The notes below the pieces were generated by a model. The model was given only the letters and a program-made list of their open reading frames with translations. It was not told where the DNA came from and ran no database searches. DNA of 32,817 nucleotides from IMG/VR virus record IMGVR_UViG_3300046167_000560, positions 1-32,817 of that record. One strand, given 5' to 3'. This document shows, piece by piece, positions 8,065-27,496 of this stretch. A program made the translations under genes and the position numbers. How positions within the stretch are numbered: position 1 is the first letter of the stretch; each line of letters opens with the position of its first letter. Origin of the DNA: a virus.

Positions 8065-8088
8065 TATTATATTTAGTTAGTCGTTTTT
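8065..8088 (-). promoter_or_regulatory. Leftward promoter motif, copy 4
   Basis: tattatattt-N6-tcgttttt. The AAAAACGA half encodes the last codons (KND) of the upstream gene, whose stop at 8077 lies within the motif. Confidence 0.65.
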
Positions 8089-8326: not shown

Positions 8327-8379
8327 TGGATAGTGAGGAATCGAACCTCATACTATTGATAGTAGTACCATACCTATCC
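8327..8379 (-). ncRNA. tRNA-like element lacking a D arm
   Basis: On the minus strand: acceptor GGATAG pairs with CTATCC (6 bp) followed by an unpaired A. A 5-bp stem TACTA/TAGTA holds the 7-nt loop CTATCAA with T at position 33. A 5-bp stem TGAGG/CCTCA holds the loop TTCGATT, which fits the universal T-loop TTCRANY exactly. Only six bases (GTATGG) stand where a D arm should be, and there is no variable loop: 53 nt in total against 73 or more for a tRNA. The would-be anticodon is AUC. It does not end in a clear CCA. Degenerate tRNA, tRNA mimic or RNA-processing signal are all possible. Confidence 0.5.
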
Positions 8380-8442
8380 GATCGTAGTCATTTGCTAGCA
8401 GCTTAAAGAAAGCGCTCGGTTATTTATTCGCTACGATAATGT

Positions 8443-8497
8443 GTGGCTGGTTACCTCCCAAGGTCATTTAACTTCACTCCGTCCCAGTGAACACCAC
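8443..8497 (-). ncRNA. Two-copy structured element, copy A (strand uncertain)
   Basis: Plus-strand layout: closing stem GTGG (8443-8446) with CCAC (8494-8497); core CTGGTTACCTCC then CAAGGTCATTTAAC; hairpin TTCACT-CCGTCCC-AGTGAA (6 bp, 7-nt loop); then CA. Copy B at 12654-12716 keeps the core nearly unchanged but has different stem sequences that still pair. Inside the core ACCT can pair with AGGT, giving a three-way junction. The neighbouring genes are transcribed leftward, so the minus-strand RNA is the more likely product. Confidence 0.55.
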
Positions 8498-8651
8498 TTA
8501 ATATTTTATGTACTACACAGCAATGTACATTGATCACATTTTCGCTGAACCACAAAGGGCTGTGAACTAACTAATAAATAATAAACTACAGGGTTATTTG
8601 CGTATAGCATACGCTGCCGCCCGGGCACAATCAGTTAAGAATTTTAAAAAT

Positions 8652-8843
8652 TTATTTTTCATCTTTTTCGTTTTGGGTTATTAATTTATTTACTCGTTCC
8701 ATTCGGGTTTTTAAGTATTTTAAGTCGAGTGGATCAATGTTATTATACTTTATAACGTCTTTATTGAGGTAGTCAATTAAATGTTTAGTTGCATACATCA
8801 TACAAATTAAGTTAGTATATTCTTTTGTTTTTAAGTTTATCAT
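8652..8843 (-). CDS. Small basic helical protein, function unknown
   Basis: 63 residues, rich in lysine, asparagine and isoleucine: YTNLICMMYATKHLIDYL, then IDPLDLKYLKTRMERVNKLI. Probably all helical. It has its own promoter motif at 8871-8894. No family recognised. Confidence 0.6.
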   Translation of the reverse strand: MINLKTKEYTNLICMMYATKHLIDYLNKDVIKYNNIDPLDLKYLKTRMERVNKLITQNEKDEK

Positions 8844-8870
8844 AGTATTAAATTTTATTTGTTACACATT

Positions 8871-8894
8871 TATTATATATAGTGCATCGTTTTT
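8871..8894 (-). promoter_or_regulatory. Leftward promoter motif, copy 5
   Basis: tattatatat-N6-tcgttttt, an exact consensus match, followed on the minus strand by AAATGTGTAAC, a sequence resembling those after copies 8, 10 and 12 (GTG(T/A)A soon after the A/T box). Confidence 0.68.
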
Positions 8895-8895
8895 G

Positions 8896-9087
8896 TTATA
8901 AGTCTTTCTTGCGAATCCAGGTCAAACCTTTGTAGTTGAACCATTTACGTACGCCGTCGTTGTCATTGATCTCGTCATATATATAGGCAAACTTGTTAGG
9001 TAGGTTAGCAAGATCGAAGCCAACGTGTAAGTCACCGTTTAATTTTAACTCTTTTTTAGTTCTTGAAAATTTTATAGTATTTGTCAT
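8896..9087 (-). CDS. Small protein of unknown function
   Basis: 63 residues: TIKFSRTKKELKLNGDLHV, FDLANLPNKFAYIYDEI, then WFNYKGLTWIRKKDL. Mixed strand and helix, basic. Last gene of a tight five-gene run (8896-10095) with one to four bases between genes, all probably read from the promoter at 10132-10155. Confidence 0.6.
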   Translation of the reverse strand: MTNTIKFSRTKKELKLNGDLHVGFDLANLPNKFAYIYDEINDNDGVRKWFNYKGLTWIRKKDL

Positions 9088-9088
9088 A

Positions 9089-9439
9089 TTATTGGTTTTT
9101 TTGGTTTATTTCGTCTTTAATAATGTCAGTGAACGATGTAGTTAATCTACCGATCGCTAGTTTTTCAGCCTCCTCGATAACGTTAGTGGCTAATGTACGG
9201 TATTCATTATTACCATATAGTTTGTCATATAGTTCTTTGAAGCCCAATAGGTCTACTCGTTTGCCGTTTAAGTACCAATCCATTTCGCAATCCATACAGT
9301 CGACGTTCCACGTGCCATCTTTCTTTCGTCCTACATAAGTGTATACTGTTACTTCTGCGGTGATCATGGAATCGATGTGTATAGCAACGTTACAATTGAC
9401 GTTGTAAGCTATAAAGTCGTTTAAGTGTGTAGTTTTCAT
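9089..9439 (-). CDS. Small phage protein of unknown function
   Basis: 116 residues. A strand-rich N-terminal half (VNCNVAIHIDSMITAEVTVYTYVG), a C-x2-C (DCMDC) with a tryptophan, and a helical C-terminus (LATNVIEEAEKLAI). Contains a TGCTATACA copy in frame as A-I-H. Start context AATAAACTATG. No family recognised. Confidence 0.6.
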   Translation of the reverse strand: MKTTHLNDFIAYNVNCNVAIHIDSMITAEVTVYTYVGRKKDGTWNVDCMDCEMDWYLNGKRVDLLGFKELYDKLYGNNEYRTLATNVIEEAEKLAIGRLTTSFTDIIKDEINQKNQ

Positions 9440-9442
9440 AGT

Positions 9443-9649
9443 TTATTTATTTAAAAGGTTAATTATATTTTTTATAGTTAATTCGGTTATACATTCTAGC
9501 ATTTCATAGTATTCATCGCCGTCAAGATCGATGTTTAGATACTCTAGTTGATTGTTAATGGTGTCATACATTTGATCTATAGTAACTTCAGCGATTTGTT
9601 GTGCTAAAATACCGGCATTGCTAGATAATTCTTGTTTAATAGTATTCAT
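9443..9649 (-). CDS. Small acidic helical protein, function unknown
   Basis: 68 residues, helical throughout (LSSNAGILAQQIAEVTIDQM; YYEMLECITELTIKNIINLL). Starts at 9649 with TAAACTATG. Three bases separate it from the next gene in both directions. Confidence 0.6.
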   Translation of the reverse strand: MNTIKQELSSNAGILAQQIAEVTIDQMYDTINNQLEYLNIDLDGDEYYEMLECITELTIKNIINLLNK

Positions 9650-9652
9650 AGT

Positions 9653-9844
9653 TTATAGTTGTTCGGTTAAGTGATCAAGGGCTAATTGGTAGCCATAATT
9701 TTTCGCCATTTGCATTAGTAAAAAGTCATTTACACCGTTGTTACTTTGTGCAAACATATCTAGTACTTCTTCGGTAGGTGTGGCAACAATACCACGATCT
9801 AACATTTTTTGTTTGGTTGATATAAATTTTTGTATAGAGTTCAT
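9653..9844 (-). CDS. Small protein of unknown function
   Basis: 63 residues (SIQKFISTKQKMLDRGIVA, TEEVLDMFAQSNNGVNDFL, MAKNYGYQLALDHLTEQL), probably three helices. Start context AATAACTATG. No family recognised. Confidence 0.6.
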   Translation of the reverse strand: MNSIQKFISTKQKMLDRGIVATPTEEVLDMFAQSNNGVNDFLLMQMAKNYGYQLALDHLTEQL

Positions 9845-9846
9845 AG

Positions 9847-10095
9847 TTATTTTATTTTAGAGTTAAACATAGGCATTTTAGGTCTGATTTCAGTGATTAT
9901 AGTATCGCAAGGGTCGGGCAATAGTGTATAGCACTGATTGAAAGAGTCATTAAGGTATTTAACTTGATCATCATTGAATACTCGGTTATGTTCATTGTCA
10001 ATGATGTTTTTGCAGTCATCTTCGGGGTGAACAAAGGGGTAGAGTTGTTGCATAGTAGTTAAAAACTGAATGGCTTGGTCTTTTGTAGTAATCAT
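9847..10095 (-). CDS. Small phage protein of unknown function
   Basis: 82 residues: KDQAIQFLTTMQQLYPFVHP, DDCKNIIDNEHNRVFND, and a proline-containing end. First gene of the five-gene run after the promoter at 10132-10155. Start context TAAACTATG. Contains a TGCTATACA copy read as C-Y-T. Confidence 0.6.
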   Translation of the reverse strand: MITTKDQAIQFLTTMQQLYPFVHPEDDCKNIIDNEHNRVFNDDQVKYLNDSFNQCYTLLPDPCDTIITEIRPKMPMFNSKIK

Positions 10096-10131
10096 AGTTT
10101 ATAGTATTTATTATTAGTTATTATTTGAATA

Positions 10132-10155
10132 TATTATATAAGGTATATCGTTTTT
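10132..10155 (-). promoter_or_regulatory. Leftward promoter motif, copy 6
   Basis: tattatataa-N6-tcgttttt; its AAAAACGA half starts at the stop codon of the gene ending at 10154. Confidence 0.65.
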
Positions 10156-10447
10156 AATATTTCGCTCTAATTTGGTCGGCACTACAATATGCCCACATTA
10201 CTTTGTTAATGAAGGTAATACGATCCACCGATGATTGCTCGATCGGAAAGGTGTATAGCATGGTTTCGTAGAATTCCATTAGTCCTCTATCATTCTCTGC
10301 ATACTGCGCTTTGAATACCTCATATTCGTCGCCTTGCATGAAACTCATACCGCATATTTTATTTTGTTCGTTATACTCTAGGTATATCCACCGATCATTC
10401 TTTTCACTCCAAATGTGTTCTATTTTAATTGTTTTCATAGTTTTCAT
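10154..10447 (-). CDS. Small phage protein of unknown function
   Basis: 97 residues. Two possible starts nine bases apart (10447 and 10438), both in an AACTATG context. The protein has a strand-rich N-terminal part (IKIEHIWSEKNDRWIYLEYN), a YEVFKAQYAENDRGLMEF helix, and WAYCSADQIRAKY at the end. No family recognised. Confidence 0.6.
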   Translation of the reverse strand: MKTMKTIKIEHIWSEKNDRWIYLEYNEQNKICGMSFMQGDEYEVFKAQYAENDRGLMEFYETMLYTFPIEQSSVDRITFINKVMWAYCSADQIRAKY

Positions 10448-10450
10448 AGT

Positions 10451-10612
10451 TTAGTTATTTTGTATTTTAGTTCTCGCGGTATTTACCGCTTCCATTCTTA
10501 AGTTATAAGTGTCTTCGGTTATACAACCGTCTTGTTCAATAGCTTCAAGGTGTTCTTCCATGTGATCTAGAGCTACCAACATCACATTCTTTTCATAGTT
10601 ACTTAATTGCAT
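10451..10612 (-). CDS. 53-residue helical protein
   Basis: ATG at 10612 to TAA at 10451-10453. MQLSNYEKNVMLVALDHMEE, then EHLEAIEQDGCITEDTY and NLRMEAVNTARTKI: helix-turn-helix pattern of charged helices. Overlaps the end of the next upstream gene by ten bases, a sign of compact coding. Confidence 0.5.
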   Translation of the reverse strand: MQLSNYEKNVMLVALDHMEEHLEAIEQDGCITEDTYNLRMEAVNTARTKIQNN

Positions 10613-10737
10613 AGTCTTATTTCGGTTAATATTTCACTTAATTCTTCAGTAGACATTTCACATAGGTCGATGTAGTCTTGCTCGTTGTGTGTTCGGTGAC
10701 AATACACCCATATTTCTTTAATTAGTTGTTCTCTCAT
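10603..10737 (-). CDS. 44-residue small protein
   Basis: ATG at 10737 to TAA at 10603. MREQLIKEIWVYCHRTHNEQ, then DYIDLCEMSTEELSEILTEI. Helical, acidic at the end. Starts two bases before the preceding gene's stop at 10740; overlap of ten bases with the following gene. Confidence 0.48.
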   Translation of the reverse strand: MREQLIKEIWVYCHRTHNEQDYIDLCEMSTEELSEILTEIRLCN

Positions 10738-10739
10738 AA

Positions 10740-11018
10740 TTATTTGTTTTGACAGTTATTAAGGTCGAACATGTATAGCAAACGTAGTCGATCGAGTTCG
10801 TTATTAATTAATGTTCTAGTGTAATAGTAGTTATCACGGTTTTTATTATAGTGTTTAACTTTAGTGTTAATTTGGTATAGTTTTACACCACGTCTTTTGA
10901 AGTGTGGTTGATCTTTACAACTCACTCTAACATAACCGGATTTATAGGTGTAACCTAATCGACCGTCACTCATTTCACATTTAATTGTACCGTTTTTACT
11001 GATGTTTAATACTTTCAT
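10740..11018 (-). CDS. Small basic protein of unknown function
   Basis: 92 residues. A strand-rich first half (VLNISKNGTIKCEMSDGRLG, YTYKSGYVRVSCKD) looks like a small beta barrel; the second half is basic and aromatic (HYNKNRDNYYYTRTLINNEL). Might bind nucleic acid, but there is no family match by eye. Start context AATAAACTATG; promoter copy 7 at 11055-11078. Confidence 0.6.
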   Translation of the reverse strand: MKVLNISKNGTIKCEMSDGRLGYTYKSGYVRVSCKDQPHFKRRGVKLYQINTKVKHYNKNRDNYYYTRTLINNELDRLRLLYMFDLNNCQNK

Positions 11019-11054
11019 AGTTTATTATATTTAATTATTAATTATTATTTACTT

Positions 11055-11078
11055 TATTATTTATTATATATCGTTTTT
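11055..11078 (-). promoter_or_regulatory. Leftward promoter motif, copy 7
   Basis: tattatttat-N6-tcgttttt; slightly off consensus in the A/T half. It ends two bases before the stop of the gene at 11080-11235. Confidence 0.58.
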
Positions 11079-11079
11079 A

Positions 11080-11235
11080 TTATATTATATTTAACTCTTC
11101 TAATATAGATTCAACTATATCTTCTTCTAAAAACATTTCACTATCATACTCTAGTTTCATAGTTTCTATTAACTCTTCGATCTCCCGTAATCTACCAGGA
11201 TATTGTAGTTCGATTTGACTTTGTATTCTATTCAT
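11080..11235 (-). CDS. 51-residue acidic helical protein
   Basis: ATG at 11235 (AATAAACTATG) to TAA at 11080. MNRIQSQIELQYPGRLREIE, then a run of acidic heptad-like residues to the C-terminus (MFLEEDIVESILEEL). Net charge strongly negative. No family recognised. Confidence 0.5.
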   Translation of the reverse strand: MNRIQSQIELQYPGRLREIEELIETMKLEYDSEMFLEEDIVESILEELNII

Positions 11236-11366
11236 AGTTTATTATTTACATTGTTCATATAGTGACATTTATAGTGATCGATGTATAGCAACTCGATCGA
11301 CAAGGTATTCGTAAGTACTTGTAGGCACCTACAAACACTTAATATTTAAAATAATCCTTTAAATAC

Positions 11367-11399
11367 TGTAGTTTTACCTAAAAGTACGTAATTATAATA
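11367..11399 (+). promoter_or_regulatory. Second-class promoter (GTAGCTTT type), rightward, before a non-coding stretch
   Basis: TGTAGTTTT, twelve bases, CGTAATTATAATA. One mismatch in the first box. No rightward gene follows; a structured segment does. Confidence 0.5.
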
Positions 11400-11404
11400 G
11401 TATT

Positions 11405-11520
11405 TATAAAAAACTCTAGTTATTAGTGTAACTTCATTAGTATAGTTCAATTATAGTACACTACTAATAGAGAGTGTCTTCACTCTACTATCTTAAGTTT
11501 TAAACAACTATACTTTAGTT
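11405..11520 (+). ncRNA. Possible structured non-coding RNA behind the rightward promoter
   Basis: AGTATAGTT (11439-11447) can pair with AACTATACT (11506-11514), a 9-bp closing helix. Inside it a hairpin AGAGTG-TCTT-CACTCT lies at 11471-11486. A second possible pairing joins TATTAGTGTA to TACACTACTAATA with a three-base bulge. These are competing folds. The 5' end is a guess from the promoter position and no clear terminator is seen, so ends are approximate. Confidence 0.33.
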
Positions 11521-11569
11521 TATTACTTAAATTACTCTAATGAGATCCGTTTTTACTTCAACATCGTTA

Positions 11570-11725
11570 TTAAAACATAATGTCGGTGTGAAAAAACCTA
11601 ATTAGTTCGGTCGTGGTGAACTTCTTCCTCCACTGCGTAGTCTGTTCGATCCAGTGGTACTCACCGGATTTTTCTACATTTCCGTCATTCATCCATTCTA
11701 ACATTTCTTTAGTTACTTCATACAT
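11570..11725 (-). CDS. 51-residue small protein
   Basis: ATG at 11725 (AATAACTATG) to TAA at 11570. MYEVTKEMLEWMNDGNVEKS, then GEYHWIEQTTQWRKKF and ELIRFFHTDIMF. Aromatic-rich with mixed charge. Preceded by promoter copy 8. No family recognised. Confidence 0.5.
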   Translation of the reverse strand: MYEVTKEMLEWMNDGNVEKSGEYHWIEQTTQWRKKFTTTELIRFFHTDIMF

Positions 11726-11767
11726 AGTTATTATATTTAATTATTAGTTTATTATTAATTACACTTT

Positions 11768-11791
11768 TATTATATATTACATGTCGTTTTT
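11768..11791 (-). promoter_or_regulatory. Leftward promoter motif, copy 8, joined to a TGCTATACA repeat
   Basis: tattatatat-N6-tcgttttt, then directly TGCTATACAC at 11791. The same fusion occurs at copies 10, 12 and 13. Confidence 0.68.
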
Positions 11792-11922
11792 GCTATACAC
11801 ACACTCTGTTTTGTGGTGAAAGATCGATCTTTTTAGCTAAAATACGGTAAATTTGACTAAAGAACATAGGTATGCTATACACGCGGTGTAGATTACCGCA
11901 TGTTACAGTCCGTTTTGACTAC

Positions 11923-12054
11923 CTAGCCAATAGTTAATTTATGGTGGTAGTCTCTGGCATACTCGATCATGCTCTCTTCCGTAATCATACCACGTAAATA
12001 CTGGTTTAAGTTGTCAATCATAGCAATAGTTTCAATTTTAATCTGGTTGTCCAT
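11923..12054 (-). CDS. 43-residue helical protein
   Basis: ATG at 12054 to TAG at 11923. MDNQIKIETIAMIDNLNQYL, then RGMITEESMIEYARDYHHKL. The bases immediately before the ATG contain TGCTATACAC. No family recognised; accepted for its codon pattern and position. Confidence 0.45.
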   Translation of the reverse strand: MDNQIKIETIAMIDNLNQYLRGMITEESMIEYARDYHHKLTIG

Positions 12055-12099
12055 AGTGTATAGCATTTTAAGTTATTAATTATTAATTATTATTTAAGC

Positions 12100-12122
12100 A
12101 AAAGCCTACTTTTCAGTAGACT
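12100..12122 (-). terminator. Rho-independent terminator overlapping a stop codon
   Basis: On the minus strand AGTCTACT-GAAA-AGTAGGCT forms an 8-bp stem (one G-T pair) with a GNRA-type tetraloop, followed by TTTT. The stem includes the last codons and stop of the gene at 12106-12423. Confidence 0.65.
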
Positions 12123-12423
12123 TTGCTTCAGTTATTTCAGCTAGATGTCTAACTGTGCTCGGTAAGTTAGTACTCTGTGACCAGTACTTTCGCTTAATCC
12201 AACATGCTTGTAGTTGTAACTTCGGAAGCATAGCATTTAGTATTGTATCATGATTATAAGTAACTTTTTGATTTTTATTATTTATAAAAGTTATAATCTG
12301 ATTTCGGCCTAGCCAACTCTCTCTCACTACAAAGTTCTTTCTTACTAGTGGCGGCCAGATCGCTGCTTTTTCTTCGTTTGACATAGTTTTTAGTGCTTTT
12401 TGCATAATTTCATTTGTGCTCAT
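12106..12423 (-). CDS. Basic phage protein of unknown function
   Basis: 105 residues. An N-terminal helix (NEIMQKALKTMSNEEKAAIW), a strand pair (KNFVVRESWLGRNQIITFIN), and a basic aromatic segment (LQACWIKRKYWSQSTNLP). Net positive. It ends in a hairpin terminator and has two promoter copies upstream (12470 and 12583). No family recognised. Confidence 0.62.
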   Translation of the reverse strand: MSTNEIMQKALKTMSNEEKAAIWPPLVRKNFVVRESWLGRNQIITFINNKNQKVTYNHDTILNAMLPKLQLQACWIKRKYWSQSTNLPSTVRHLAEITEAKSTEK

Positions 12424-12469
12424 AATTTTTAATTTTAAGTTTATAATTTATTTTTAGTTATTATATATA

Positions 12470-12493
12470 TATTATATTATATATATCGTTTTA
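12470..12493 (-). promoter_or_regulatory. Leftward promoter motif, copy 9 (weak)
   Basis: tattatatta-N6-tcgtttta in almost pure A/T DNA; the T-run is one base short. It stands 47 bases before the start at 12423. Confidence 0.48.
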
Positions 12494-12582
12494 GTTATTT
12501 TATATAAATTAATTAAATTTATTATTTTATTTTTTATAATTATTTTAATTATATTAATTATATTTATTATTAACTTCACATT

Positions 12583-12606
12583 TATTATATTTATAGTATC
12601 GTTTTT
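12583..12606 (-). promoter_or_regulatory. Leftward promoter motif, copy 10, joined to iteron cluster 1
   Basis: tattatattt-N6-tcgttttt followed at once by TGCTATACA. On the minus strand GTGAAGTTAA follows the A/T box, as after copy 12. No gene lies between this copy and copy 9, so a long A/T leader or tandem promoters serve the gene at 12106-12423. Confidence 0.62.
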
Positions 12607-12651
12607 GCTATACACAATGCTATACGCATTCCCCTGGAAAAATGCTATACA
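12606..12651 (+). repeat. Iteron-like cluster 1: three TGCTATAC repeats
   Basis: TGCTATACA at 12606, TGCTATACG at 12618 and TGCTATACA at 12643, all in one orientation. Two are close together, the third is preceded by AAAAA. Cluster 2 at 13367-13408 has the same arrangement. The DNA to the left (about 12424-12600) is almost only A and T. Confidence 0.62.
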
Positions 12652-12653
12652 CC

Positions 12654-12716
12654 CAGACCCAGGCTGGTTACCTCCTAGGTCAATTAGCTGAGATCAACTG
12701 TCTCACACCTGGTCTG
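12654..12716 (-). ncRNA. Two-copy structured element, copy B (strand uncertain)
   Basis: Plus-strand layout: CAGACCCAGG (12654-12663) pairs with CCTGGTCTG (12708-12716), 9 bp with one bulged C. The core is CTGGTTACCTCC then TAGGTCAATTAGC. The hairpin TGAGA-TCAACTG-TCTCA has 5 bp and a 7-nt loop and is followed by CA, exactly as in copy A. ACCT/AGGT can pair within the core. It lies between the gene ending at 12728 and iteron cluster 1. Confidence 0.58.
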
Positions 12717-12727
12717 TAGTGCATCTG

Positions 12728-12880
12728 CTAGACTGAAGCCCAGAACAGATCTTGCTGCTCTGGAGTTAGTCCTTTTAAGTTATCCTGGCCAAACATATCT
12801 TGGCAGATTAGAGTTCTTCGTTCAGACTCAGCTATGCCTTGCATAACCTCATCCCATGCTTGTGAATTAGTTTGATACAT
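12728..12880 (-). CDS. 50-residue small protein
   Basis: ATG at 12880 to TAG at 12728. MYQTNSQAWDEVMQGIAESE, then RRTLICQDMFGQDNLKGLTP and EQQDLFWASV. The composition (Gln, Trp, acidic) is unlike the A/T-driven frames further right, and the frame looks genuine. One base separates it from the next gene. Confidence 0.55.
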   Translation of the reverse strand: MYQTNSQAWDEVMQGIAESERRTLICQDMFGQDNLKGLTPEQQDLFWASV

Positions 12881-20736: not shown

Positions 20737-22272
20737 ATGAATCAAATAGTAAAAGAATTTCACTTCGGAACTGAGGGGAAAGAAAAGCTGTTTAAAGGTA
20801 TTGATACTTTGGCAGGAGCCGTAGCTTCTACATTAGGGGCAGGTGGAGAAACAGTAATTTTTGAAGATAATGCTGGAGTACCTGTAATAACAAAAGACGG
20901 TGTAACAGTTGCTAACTTGTGTATCATGGAAGATCCTGTAGAGAATATGGGTGCATCTATGGTTAAGCAAGCAGCACAAAGAACAGTGCAAGATGCAGGA
21001 GACGGGACAACTACCGCTACGGTATTAACACATTCTTTATTGCATGCTTTAGTTGACAACAAAGATATAAACAAAAGAGAAGTAGCAGAAGCTATAAATA
21101 CAGTAGTAGATAAGGTTACTAAGTATTTAGATAAGGTAAGTAAAGTGGTTGACGATTCAATGATTGAAGAAGTGGCCACTATATCTACTAATAATGACGT
21201 TGAGCTAGGTAAGTTGATTGCTGATGCTTATAGAGCAGTTGATTTGACAGGTATAGTTATGATGGAAACATCAAAGACTGGTGAAACAGGTCTAGAGGTT
21301 GTTGAGGGAGTTCAGTATGACAAAGGATTTATCAATAACCATTTTGTAAACAATCAAACAAATAATTCTTGCGAACAAGAAAACCCTTTAATACTTCTGA
21401 TCGATTCTCAAGTAGATACAGTAAGACAAATACAAACTGTACTCGAGCACGTTATAAAAAACAAAAGATCATTCCTAATCATAGGGGACGTCGACCCGAA
21501 AGTGGCAGCGACTTTAGCTATGAACAAGAATAAGGGTAATATTGATATTAACATCGTTCCAGCACCTACACATGGTGTAAATAGAAAAGAGATGTTTGAT
21601 GATTTAGCATTATTAACAGGTGCAACAGTTATAAGTGAAAACTTAGGAGACGATTTAGATTTAATTGATCTTGATCATTTAGGCACTTGCACAAAAGCTA
21701 CTTCGACATTTGCGGATACAGTTATACAAATTAATAACGATGCCGCCGAACGAGTTACAGAAATCGTAAGAAACTTAAAAGAAAAGCTAAGTAACGAAAC
21801 AAATCCTAACAGAGTAGTTAAGATTGAAAAAAGACTAGCTATATTATCCGCTAAGGTTGCAATAGTGCAAGTTGGCGGTAATTCAGATATAGAATTAAAA
21901 GAAAAAAGAGATCGTGTAGAAGATGCAATATGTGCAACCAAAGCAGCGATTAAAGAAGGTGTTGTTGCAGGTGGAGGTGTTGCATTAGCTCAAGCTACTG
22001 TAAAGATTAAAACTAAGACACAAGCCGAAAGAATTGTTATGGAAGCGCTTATTGCTCCTTACAGAATTATATTACAGAATGCAGGGCTATTAGTTGATAT
22101 TGTAGATCGTAAAGATTGGGGTATTGATGCAAGAACAGGTAAAGCAGTAAATATGTTTAAAGCTGGTATTATAGATCCAGTGCTTGTTACAAAGTCAGCA
22201 TTAAGAAATGCAGCGTCAGTGGCTTCAACTATATTGTCTACTAACTGCATAATGTCTAATCTAAGAGCGTAA
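20737..22272 (+). CDS. groEL: Phage-encoded GroEL chaperonin
   Basis: 511 residues, alignable with bacterial GroEL along its length. ATP-site blocks are kept: VITKDGVTV (Asp52 equivalent), DAGDGTTTATVL (Asp87 equivalent) and RVEDAICAT (Asp398 equivalent), then EGVVAGGGVAL. Differences: the LGPKG phosphate loop reads LGAGG; the apical motif GFGDRR reads THGVNR; and the GGM-rich tail is missing, the protein ending CIMSNLRA. E. coli GroEL has 548 residues. The ring ATPase would encapsulate substrates with the GroES encoded one base later. It has its own promoter, separate from the fibre genes. Likely clients are phage capsid or fibre proteins. Confidence 0.95.
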   Translation: MNQIVKEFHFGTEGKEKLFKGIDTLAGAVASTLGAGGETVIFEDNAGVPVITKDGVTVANLCIMEDPVENMGASMVKQAAQRTVQDAGDGTTTATVLTHSLLHALVDNKDINKREVAEAINTVVDKVTKYLDKVSKVVDDSMIEEVATISTNNDVELGKLIADAYRAVDLTGIVMMETSKTGETGLEVVEGVQYDKGFINNHFVNNQTNNSCEQENPLILLIDSQVDTVRQIQTVLEHVIKNKRSFLIIGDVDPKVAATLAMNKNKGNIDINIVPAPTHGVNRKEMFDDLALLTGATVISENLGDDLDLIDLDHLGTCTKATSTFADTVIQINNDAAERVTEIVRNLKEKLSNETNPNRVVKIEKRLAILSAKVAIVQVGGNSDIELKEKRDRVEDAICATKAAIKEGVVAGGGVALAQATVKIKTKTQAERIVMEALIAPYRIILQNAGLLVDIVDRKDWGIDARTGKAVNMFKAGIIDPVLVTKSALRNAASVASTILSTNCIMSNLRA

Positions 22273-26666: not shown

Positions 26667-26891
26667 ATGAATATTATAAGGAAAATAAGTATCGGGGCTG
26701 ACTATAAGAACGAAGCAATGCATTACTCTGTTAATCAGAAAGTTTACGGCGGCCACGAAATTTCTCATATAATCTTTGAAGAAACCGATAAGTCTTATAA
26801 TATATTCATAACAAAAAACAACGAGAGCATGCCATGGAAGAAATTTAATTCTAACATGGCTATCTCCGTTGAGTATGACTTAGAGTACTAA
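26667..26891 (+). CDS. Small protein of unknown function
   Basis: 74 residues, strand-rich (IIRKISIGADYKNEAMHYSV; HEISHIIFEETDKSYNIFIT). Spaced two bases from the gene before; its stop overlaps the next start as TAATG. No family recognised. Confidence 0.6.
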   Translation: MNIIRKISIGADYKNEAMHYSVNQKVYGGHEISHIIFEETDKSYNIFITKNNESMPWKKFNSNMAISVEYDLEY

Positions 26892-27496
26892 TGAGAAGCA
26901 TATACGATTTTATCGTTGAGCCTCTCGGCGAAAGATATGATAATACAGCGAAGGTTGGTGAAGTGAACCTTATAACAAACACTTCTATAGAGAGTTGGAA
27001 ACACGTAAACAAGTATGCAAGAGTCTTAGAGACTCCAGTTGGCATTCACACACCTATAAAGGAAGGTGATACTATAGTCGTGCATCAGAACGTGTTTCGT
27101 ACTTTTTATGATATGAAGGGAAAAAAGAAGAACTCACGTTCATTCTTAGAAGATAATAAGTTTTTATGTGCGGTAGATCAAATATATTTATACAAAACGC
27201 ACGGACCTTGGAAGGCATTAGGCGATAGATGTTTTGTAGCTCCAATTGTCAATACAGACGATTTTAGCTTAGATAAAACAGAAGCCCTTGTTGGAATACT
27301 CAAAATAGATAATAGCTCCTTAAACGAGCTTAAAATGAGTACAGGCGATACAGTAGGATTTACACCAAACAGCGAATGGGAATTTGTTGTTGATAATCAG
27401 CTAATGTATTGCATGAGGACAAAAGATATTGTAATTAAATATGAACACAAACAAAACCAAAAAGAGTATAATAGAAGCTGGGCGAGCGGCCGTTGA
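26891..27496 (+). CDS. Putative tandem GroES-like (double co-chaperonin fold) protein
   Basis: 201 residues that look like two GroES-like domains. Domain 1 (about 1-105): YDFIVEPLGERYDN opens like GroES, KEGDTIVVHQNVFR matches the G-D-x-V-x-x beta strand, and LEDNKFLCAVDQIYL ends like the GroES C-terminus. Domain 2 (about 108-188): ALGDRCFVAPIV, STGDTVGFTPN and VVDNQLMYCMRTKDIVI, the last matching the bacterial IDNEEVLIMSESDI pattern. No clear mobile-loop GG motif. It could be a capsid-specific lid like T4 gp31 or a structural protein that borrowed the fold. The match is by eye only, so the call is tentative. Confidence 0.55.
   Translation: MRSIYDFIVEPLGERYDNTAKVGEVNLITNTSIESWKHVNKYARVLETPVGIHTPIKEGDTIVVHQNVFRTFYDMKGKKKNSRSFLEDNKFLCAVDQIYLYKTHGPWKALGDRCFVAPIVNTDDFSLDKTEALVGILKIDNSSLNELKMSTGDTVGFTPNSEWEFVVDNQLMYCMRTKDIVIKYEHKQNQKEYNRSWASGR

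Follow-up and report, generated by a model that had tools for sequence, protein, structure and literature searches.

Two copies of a candidate structured element, at positions 8443-8497 and 12654-12716, lie in gene-free spots of a 32.8-kb virus record (IMG/VR record IMGVR_UViG_3300046167_000560, positions 1 to 32,817; this whole stretch of DNA is called the window). A sequence-only reading had pointed out that the stems of the two copies differ in sequence but still pair. The locus thus raises two questions: whether the copies belong to a real family of folded RNAs, and what such an element would do for a phage. On the first, comparative sequence analysis confirms both copies as real members of a family of small folded RNAs arranged as a P1-P2-P3 three-way junction. 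The module is typically about 55-75 nucleotides (nt) long, reaching about 100 nt in one relative.

A family of three-way-junction RNAs

On the minus strand, GGUG, YUAAW-UG and CAGCC are common to both copies. P1 ends in GGU/GCC with a U.G pair at the junction, J1/2 is a single G, P2 is a variable hairpin, J2/3 is YUAAW and P3 is opened by UG...CA beside P1. Subtype A follows the order P1(...GGU/GCC...) - G - P2 - (N)YUAAW - UG - P3 - AACCA. Subtype B has the same layout except that its P3 is UGG.../...CCA and lies directly on P1.

The first line of evidence comes from covariance models. Model R1, trained on copy-2-type sequences alone in the minus-strand orientation, picks out copy 1 both in the window and in the relatives G002 and G009 with expectation values (E) of 3e-6 to 8e-6. 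The window match spans 8437-8500 on the minus strand (34.1 bits, E 4.2e-6), and copy 2 itself scores 77.2 bits (E 1.8e-16). Applied to the locus set with filters off, R1 also matches an element with a 12-bp P1 in L229 (E 8.4e-7), a locus of another lineage that was originally fetched by sequence pattern and whose translated open reading frames (ORFs) do not resemble the window's. The same search finds variant elements of the copy-1 type in L104, L105 and L124 (E 0.0004 to 0.08), and model R2 adds L290 (E 2e-15).

The second line of evidence is covariation. The subtype A alignment, fitted to the R1 structure, holds 11 sequences and 21 pairs; 97.7% of its pair cells are paired, and 15 of the 21 pairs have changed on both sides (0/500 shuffles). 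Its covariation score is 0.61, compared with 0.20 for shuffles and at most 0.15 for slid controls. For subtype B, nine sequences give 97.0% pairing and a score of 0.66; with the sequence from the Flavobacterium elemo phages included, the ten sequences give 97.1% and 0.64. For A10 and A12, pairs were counted after the stems had been trimmed by hand and the loops and two bulges removed. At the copy-1 locus, P3 changes from ACCU/AGGU to UCUU/AAGA across relatives and the junction stays unchanged. Invariance of the core is partly ascertained by the search patterns, which contained the letters GGCTGGTT, CATTTAA, CACC and TCCCA.

Because R1 recovers a copy it had never seen and the covariation lies far above shuffles and slid controls, the element is not a product of chance. 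Single-sequence folding gives the window copies no support (minus-strand z of +0.49 for copy 1 and -0.07 for copy 2), so the structural case rests on comparison. The selection on RNA structure proposed from the two copies is thereby supported by two separate sets of sequences, and neither outcome that it had named as refuting (a lack of homologues, or differences that break the stems) occurred: several phage lineages have homologues, with nearly all differences compensated.

Copy 1 (8443-8497, minus strand) reads GUGGU G UUCACU GGGACGG AGUGAA G UUAAA UG ACCU UGGG AGGU AACCA GCCAC. Its P1 pairs the 5' strand GUGGU (8493-8497) with the 3' strand GCCAC (8443-8447), the inner pair being the invariant U.G. 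These strands enclose the P2 hairpin UUCACU-GGGACGG-AGUGAA (8473-8491), the conserved junction strand J2/3 GUUAAAUG (8465-8472, with UAA/UG invariant), the P3 hairpin ACCU-UGGG-AGGU (8453-8464; three relatives have UCUU-AAG-AAGA here) and J3/1 AACCA (8448-8452). Copy 2 (12654-12716, minus strand) reads CAGACCAGGU G UGAGA CAGUUGA UCUCA GC UAAUUG ACCU AGG AGGU AACCA G CCUGGGUCUG. The 5' strand of its P1 (12707-12716) pairs with 12654-12664 around one bulged base, and the remaining parts are the P2 hairpin UGAGA-CAGUUGA-UCUCA (12689-12705), J2/3 GCUAAUUG (12681-12688), the P3 hairpin ACCU-AGG-AGGU (12670-12680) and J3/1 AACCA (12665-12669). It is the least typical member of the family, since its atypical P2 loop lacks the GGGAY of other subtype A copies. 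Exact core matches fall at 8447-8458 and 12664-12675, and the positions, the gene-free setting and the 7-base hairpin loop described by the sequence-only reading are correct for both copies. The stems it named exist, including the third arm ACCT/AGGT, and the three-way junction it had offered as a possibility is supported by the aligned homologues.

The shared core pattern matched nine related IMG/VR contigs, and relatives L002 and L011 each carry a copy-1-type plus a copy-2-type element. Two further matches, in L009 and L014, were rejected as chance since the core there lies within unrelated genes, and most matches to patterns of 15-16 bases were likewise discarded. Subtype B was found through later patterns and model R3 in L192/L225/L337, L339, L333, L292, in five copies in L344 (= G048) and in the cultured elemo phages. 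The subtype B sequences behind R3 had hand-shortened loops and one simplified P2, and because of that its scores serve as a search aid only. The model alone picked up the elemo copy, in which GGUG, UUAAAUG and CAGCC are retained and the adjacent pairs have changed. A scan of genome contigs for the GGGA-loop subtype returned no believable member.

The window encodes a terminase, a portal and GroEL/GroES-like proteins. Given terminase identities of 63% to Manatee Spring phage MW202828, 44% to the elemo phages and 36-38% to Cellulophaga phages, the virus is most likely a Bacteroidota podovirus. The module is present in the window clade (G000-G009, G047) and missing from most of the terminase relatives searched, many of which are fragments. 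This patchy distribution suggests a mobile or readily lost part. Cyanophage S-CBWM1 shares a glycosyltransferase with L337, and a search of S-CBWM1 for the element found none.

Placement and candidate roles

The sites at which the module occurs bear most directly on its role. Distances from stop codon to module were measured by script to the paired part of P1. They are 4-15 nt at the copy-2 loci of the window clade, 2 nt in L290, 5 nt in L348/L292 and 6-9 nt for three copies in L344, and in L229 the two overlap. In the window itself, a 50-amino-acid ORF (12728-12880, minus strand) ends with its stop codon 11 nt ahead of the P1 of copy 2. The next ORF start lies a few to several hundred nt from the module. 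Elsewhere the neighbours are structured RNAs: the order is tRNA-Glu, module, tmRNA in L192, L225 and L337, with tRNA-Leu in place of tmRNA in L339 and tRNA-Val in L333. In the Flavobacterium phages elemoF and elemoA the module lies 22 nt past a stop codon and a few nt 5' of tRNA-Met, and in elemoC module and tRNA-Met are jointly swapped for another leader and tRNA-Ala at the same site. The tRNA called tRNA-Ala in elemoC has an unusual appearance, and among these otherwise near-identical phages (L385 / L386 / L387) tRNA and leader are exchanged as a cassette.

A further setting is found in G048, a 70-kb phage with five modules: four cap P1 of twister-P5-like ribozymes and the fifth stands alone. 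One of these twisters (L344 6616-6725) scores 42.8 bits in Rfam, above the 37.6 cut-off; two further module-bearing twisters score 35.2 and 19.6 bits, and for the copy near 950 of L344 the assignment to a twister was made from identical flanking sequence. In two other twister-P5 ribozymes of G048, P1 ends in a plain short loop with no module. Compared with twister-P5 (RF02684), the module is its P1 hairpin in G048 and both occupy intergenic seams of phages; the module itself lacks the core of twister, and no twister surrounds the window copies (Rfam, E up to 10). The core segments GCAGAG..., UAAUGC and CAAGCC are present around the G048 copies and absent around the window copies. Twister type P5 has its termini in P5 and cleaves at a U-A step (PMC5408937). 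In the Rfam alignment of this type the 3' strand of P1 comes just before a conserved UAA; cleavage would thus leave the module attached to the upstream mRNA, at its 3' end. A different structured P1 insert of about 40 nt (CCCGUUUGAGUGAUAGU...ACCGAGG) is found on the twister-P5 at L361 1044-1132 (about 18.3 kb in G048), which suggests that twister P1 caps are exchanged.

All of these sites share a seam between two RNA units, and for this reason we tentatively favor, at somewhat less than an even chance, a portable module for RNA processing or for bounding and protecting RNA ends that would act through a putative factor bound at the junction. In the window phage, whose left-arm genes are oriented leftward, it would be transcribed from the minus strand together with these genes. 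Phages place it at RNA-unit seams (after a stop codon, between structured RNAs or ahead of a tRNA or tmRNA), where it would fold independently of its neighbours. There it may mark or protect the RNA end made at that site, be it the upstream mRNA's 3' end or the leader on a precursor tRNA, and may keep adjacent RNAs from misfolding; the conserved junction would probably bind a host or phage factor. RNase P processes the 5' end of tRNA or tmRNA, and its cut there would likewise leave the module at the 3' end of the upstream RNA.

Several observations weigh against this boundary role. The module is missing in four of five cultured or complete relatives, elemoF being the exception, so it is dispensable. 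Copy 1 is part of an RNA-like cassette, and no ORF upstream of it is convincing. The elemo module looks less like the 3' end of an mRNA than like the leader of a tRNA, and a single role may therefore not account for every site.

A bolder proposal, which we rate as doubtful, is that the junction itself has an activity, being a new class of self-cleaving ribozyme or else the first natural sensor mounted on twister and also used alone at gene seams. Considered separately, the sensor would bind a small ligand or a specific protein at the junction and so alter P1 stability, making a natural aptazyme on twister and a riboswitch-like or protein-controlled element elsewhere. The unpaired junction nucleotides (G, UUAAA) are conserved and the stems vary freely, as in aptamers. 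Engineers attach aptamers to twister P1 to obtain ligand-controlled twisters (PMC5052635), and four of the five G048 copies sit exactly at this attachment site; in both cases an RNA domain is grafted onto stem P1, but the G048 module is natural and its ligand binding putative. The sensor is nevertheless unlikely in our view, given that next-start distances vary widely and that a site between tRNA-Glu and tmRNA or another tRNA would be odd for a metabolite switch. A riboswitch for one gene was rejected because the downstream gene is not constant, being variously unrelated small ORFs, tRNAs or tmRNA.

That the module is a new self-cleaving ribozyme in its own right seems less probable still. Roughly 15 core nucleotides are conserved around its compact junction of several helices, its phage contexts are gene-independent, genomes have several copies, and it keeps company with twister, all of which would fit. 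Ribozymes of known classes cluster with one another and with phage genes (PMC10085705). However, a second cleavage has no obvious use where the module is nested in twister P1, ten comparable orphan motifs assayed in the same study did not cleave (PMC10085705), and neither the window copies nor the L192 element match any Rfam ribozyme at E up to 10.

The comparison with known classes used Rfam 15 (4227 covariance models). The window gives 0 matches at the gathering score and neither copy gives any at E up to 10, which upholds the earlier statement that no known riboswitch or ribozyme core is present. The L192 element has a chance match only (E 2.3), and those of L229, L290, L292, L124, L104 and L105 have none. 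Pistol with its strand order rotated has a superficial likeness to the module, with a hairpin followed by UUAAAU and GG-U-G nearby. It was rejected because Rfam gives no match to pistol (PMC4604425) for the window copies or L192 and, judged by eye, no pseudoknot between P1 loop and P2-P3 junction can be seen; in subtype B, P3 forms a local hairpin, unlike pistol. Hammerhead, HDV, hatchet and twister-sister models match neither the window, its two copies nor L192, a result that covers the Rfam models, non-circular hammerhead permutations (PMC10085705) not having been tested separately. The element is not a tRNA or tRNA-like RNA either, as it has no T-arm and ARAGORN calls the neighbouring tRNAs and not the element. 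An intrinsic terminator was set aside on inspection, since U7 directly follows P1 in L290 only, where it is a possible extra.

Further parallels are the RAGATH and HRIMA orphan motifs, which are also compact, covarying, phage-associated and found beside known ribozymes (PMC10085705); none of them matched, the comparison being made through Rfam only. HRIMA motifs were reported almost only from metatranscriptomes (PMC10085705), whereas the module comes from phage DNA. Within the open-access literature, with unpublished or paywalled motif lists outside its scope, no description of such a motif was found. Judged by Rfam and this literature, the module is a new RNA family.

The family is thus a compact RNA whose junction is strictly kept across unrelated phages, nearly always at RNA seams. 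Its carriers include Bacteroidota podoviruses, large phages with one cyanophage-related gene and a twister-bearing phage. It gives a concrete starting point for learning how polycistronic RNA is cut and protected by phages, and it bears on the open question of what purpose phage-borne ribozymes such as twister serve. A cultured system is available in the elemo phages, which grow on Flavobacterium sp. BAL314.

Strand and molecule

The functional strand is most likely the minus strand, as judged from pairing patterns across the family. In copy-2 relatives P1 is an unbroken helix of 10-11 bp on the minus strand only, through G-U wobbles that would be C.A on the plus strand. The junction-side U.G is kept in 21 of 21 aligned sequences and argues for minus-strand RNA because it too would be C.A on plus. 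Gene orientation matches that of the element at nearly all loci, and an example relative folds at -33.3 kcal/mol on minus and -27.2 kcal/mol on plus. The sequence-only reading had allowed for either RNA or single-strand DNA structure; the RNA part stands, and the tolerance of G-U wobbles speaks against single-stranded DNA.

A DNA-level element, such as a replication origin or a recombination or packaging signal acting as a cruciform or single strand, is accordingly very improbable: repeated GTGTATAGCA-like motifs do adjoin copy 2 and there are two copies per genome, but the family is fixed for wobble pairs that only minus-strand RNA tolerates, and most copies lie in transcribed spacers and are oriented with transcription. 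A functional plus-strand RNA is hardly credible, for although window copy 2 folds better on plus (z -1.88 against -0.07 on minus), the conserved U.G, the folding energies of relatives and the gene direction at nearly all loci favor minus.

Neighbouring features of the window

An RNA-like stretch of about 300 nt encloses copy 1; it is near-identical in related phages and ends in a short tRNA-like feature (8327-8379, minus strand). This feature lies about 64 nt 3' of copy 1, has an acceptor GGATAG/CTATCC and a T-arm TGAGG-TTCGATT-CCTCA, and is not called by ARAGORN; it is possibly part of one RNA cassette with copy 1. It also occurs in L102, L104, L105, L124 and L106 1525-1635, with a conserved acceptor and T-arm (GGTTCGATTCC) and a hypervariable middle part, which differs in both length and sequence among otherwise near-identical phages. 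In L124 (1350-1460) an insertion of about 110 nt adjoins copy 1, flanked by ACGTAGT/ACTACGT, and may be another structured element.

Among the proteins, a phage GroEL and a 201-amino-acid GroES-like protein are encoded at 20737-22272 and 26891-27496. A 185-amino-acid neighbour protein has no relatives by tblastn against the phage collection, and the neighbouring small proteins have no PHROG match. Upstream of leftward genes, a promoter-like repeat on the minus strand, AWAAYAAAAACGA-N-TATATAATA, occurs at 8065, 8871, 11768, 12470, 12583 and 13090; these repeats are likely phage early promoters. Beside them and copy 2, a motif of the form GTGTATAGCA / TGCTATACAC is repeated within 11270-12650 and is a possible operator or iteron.

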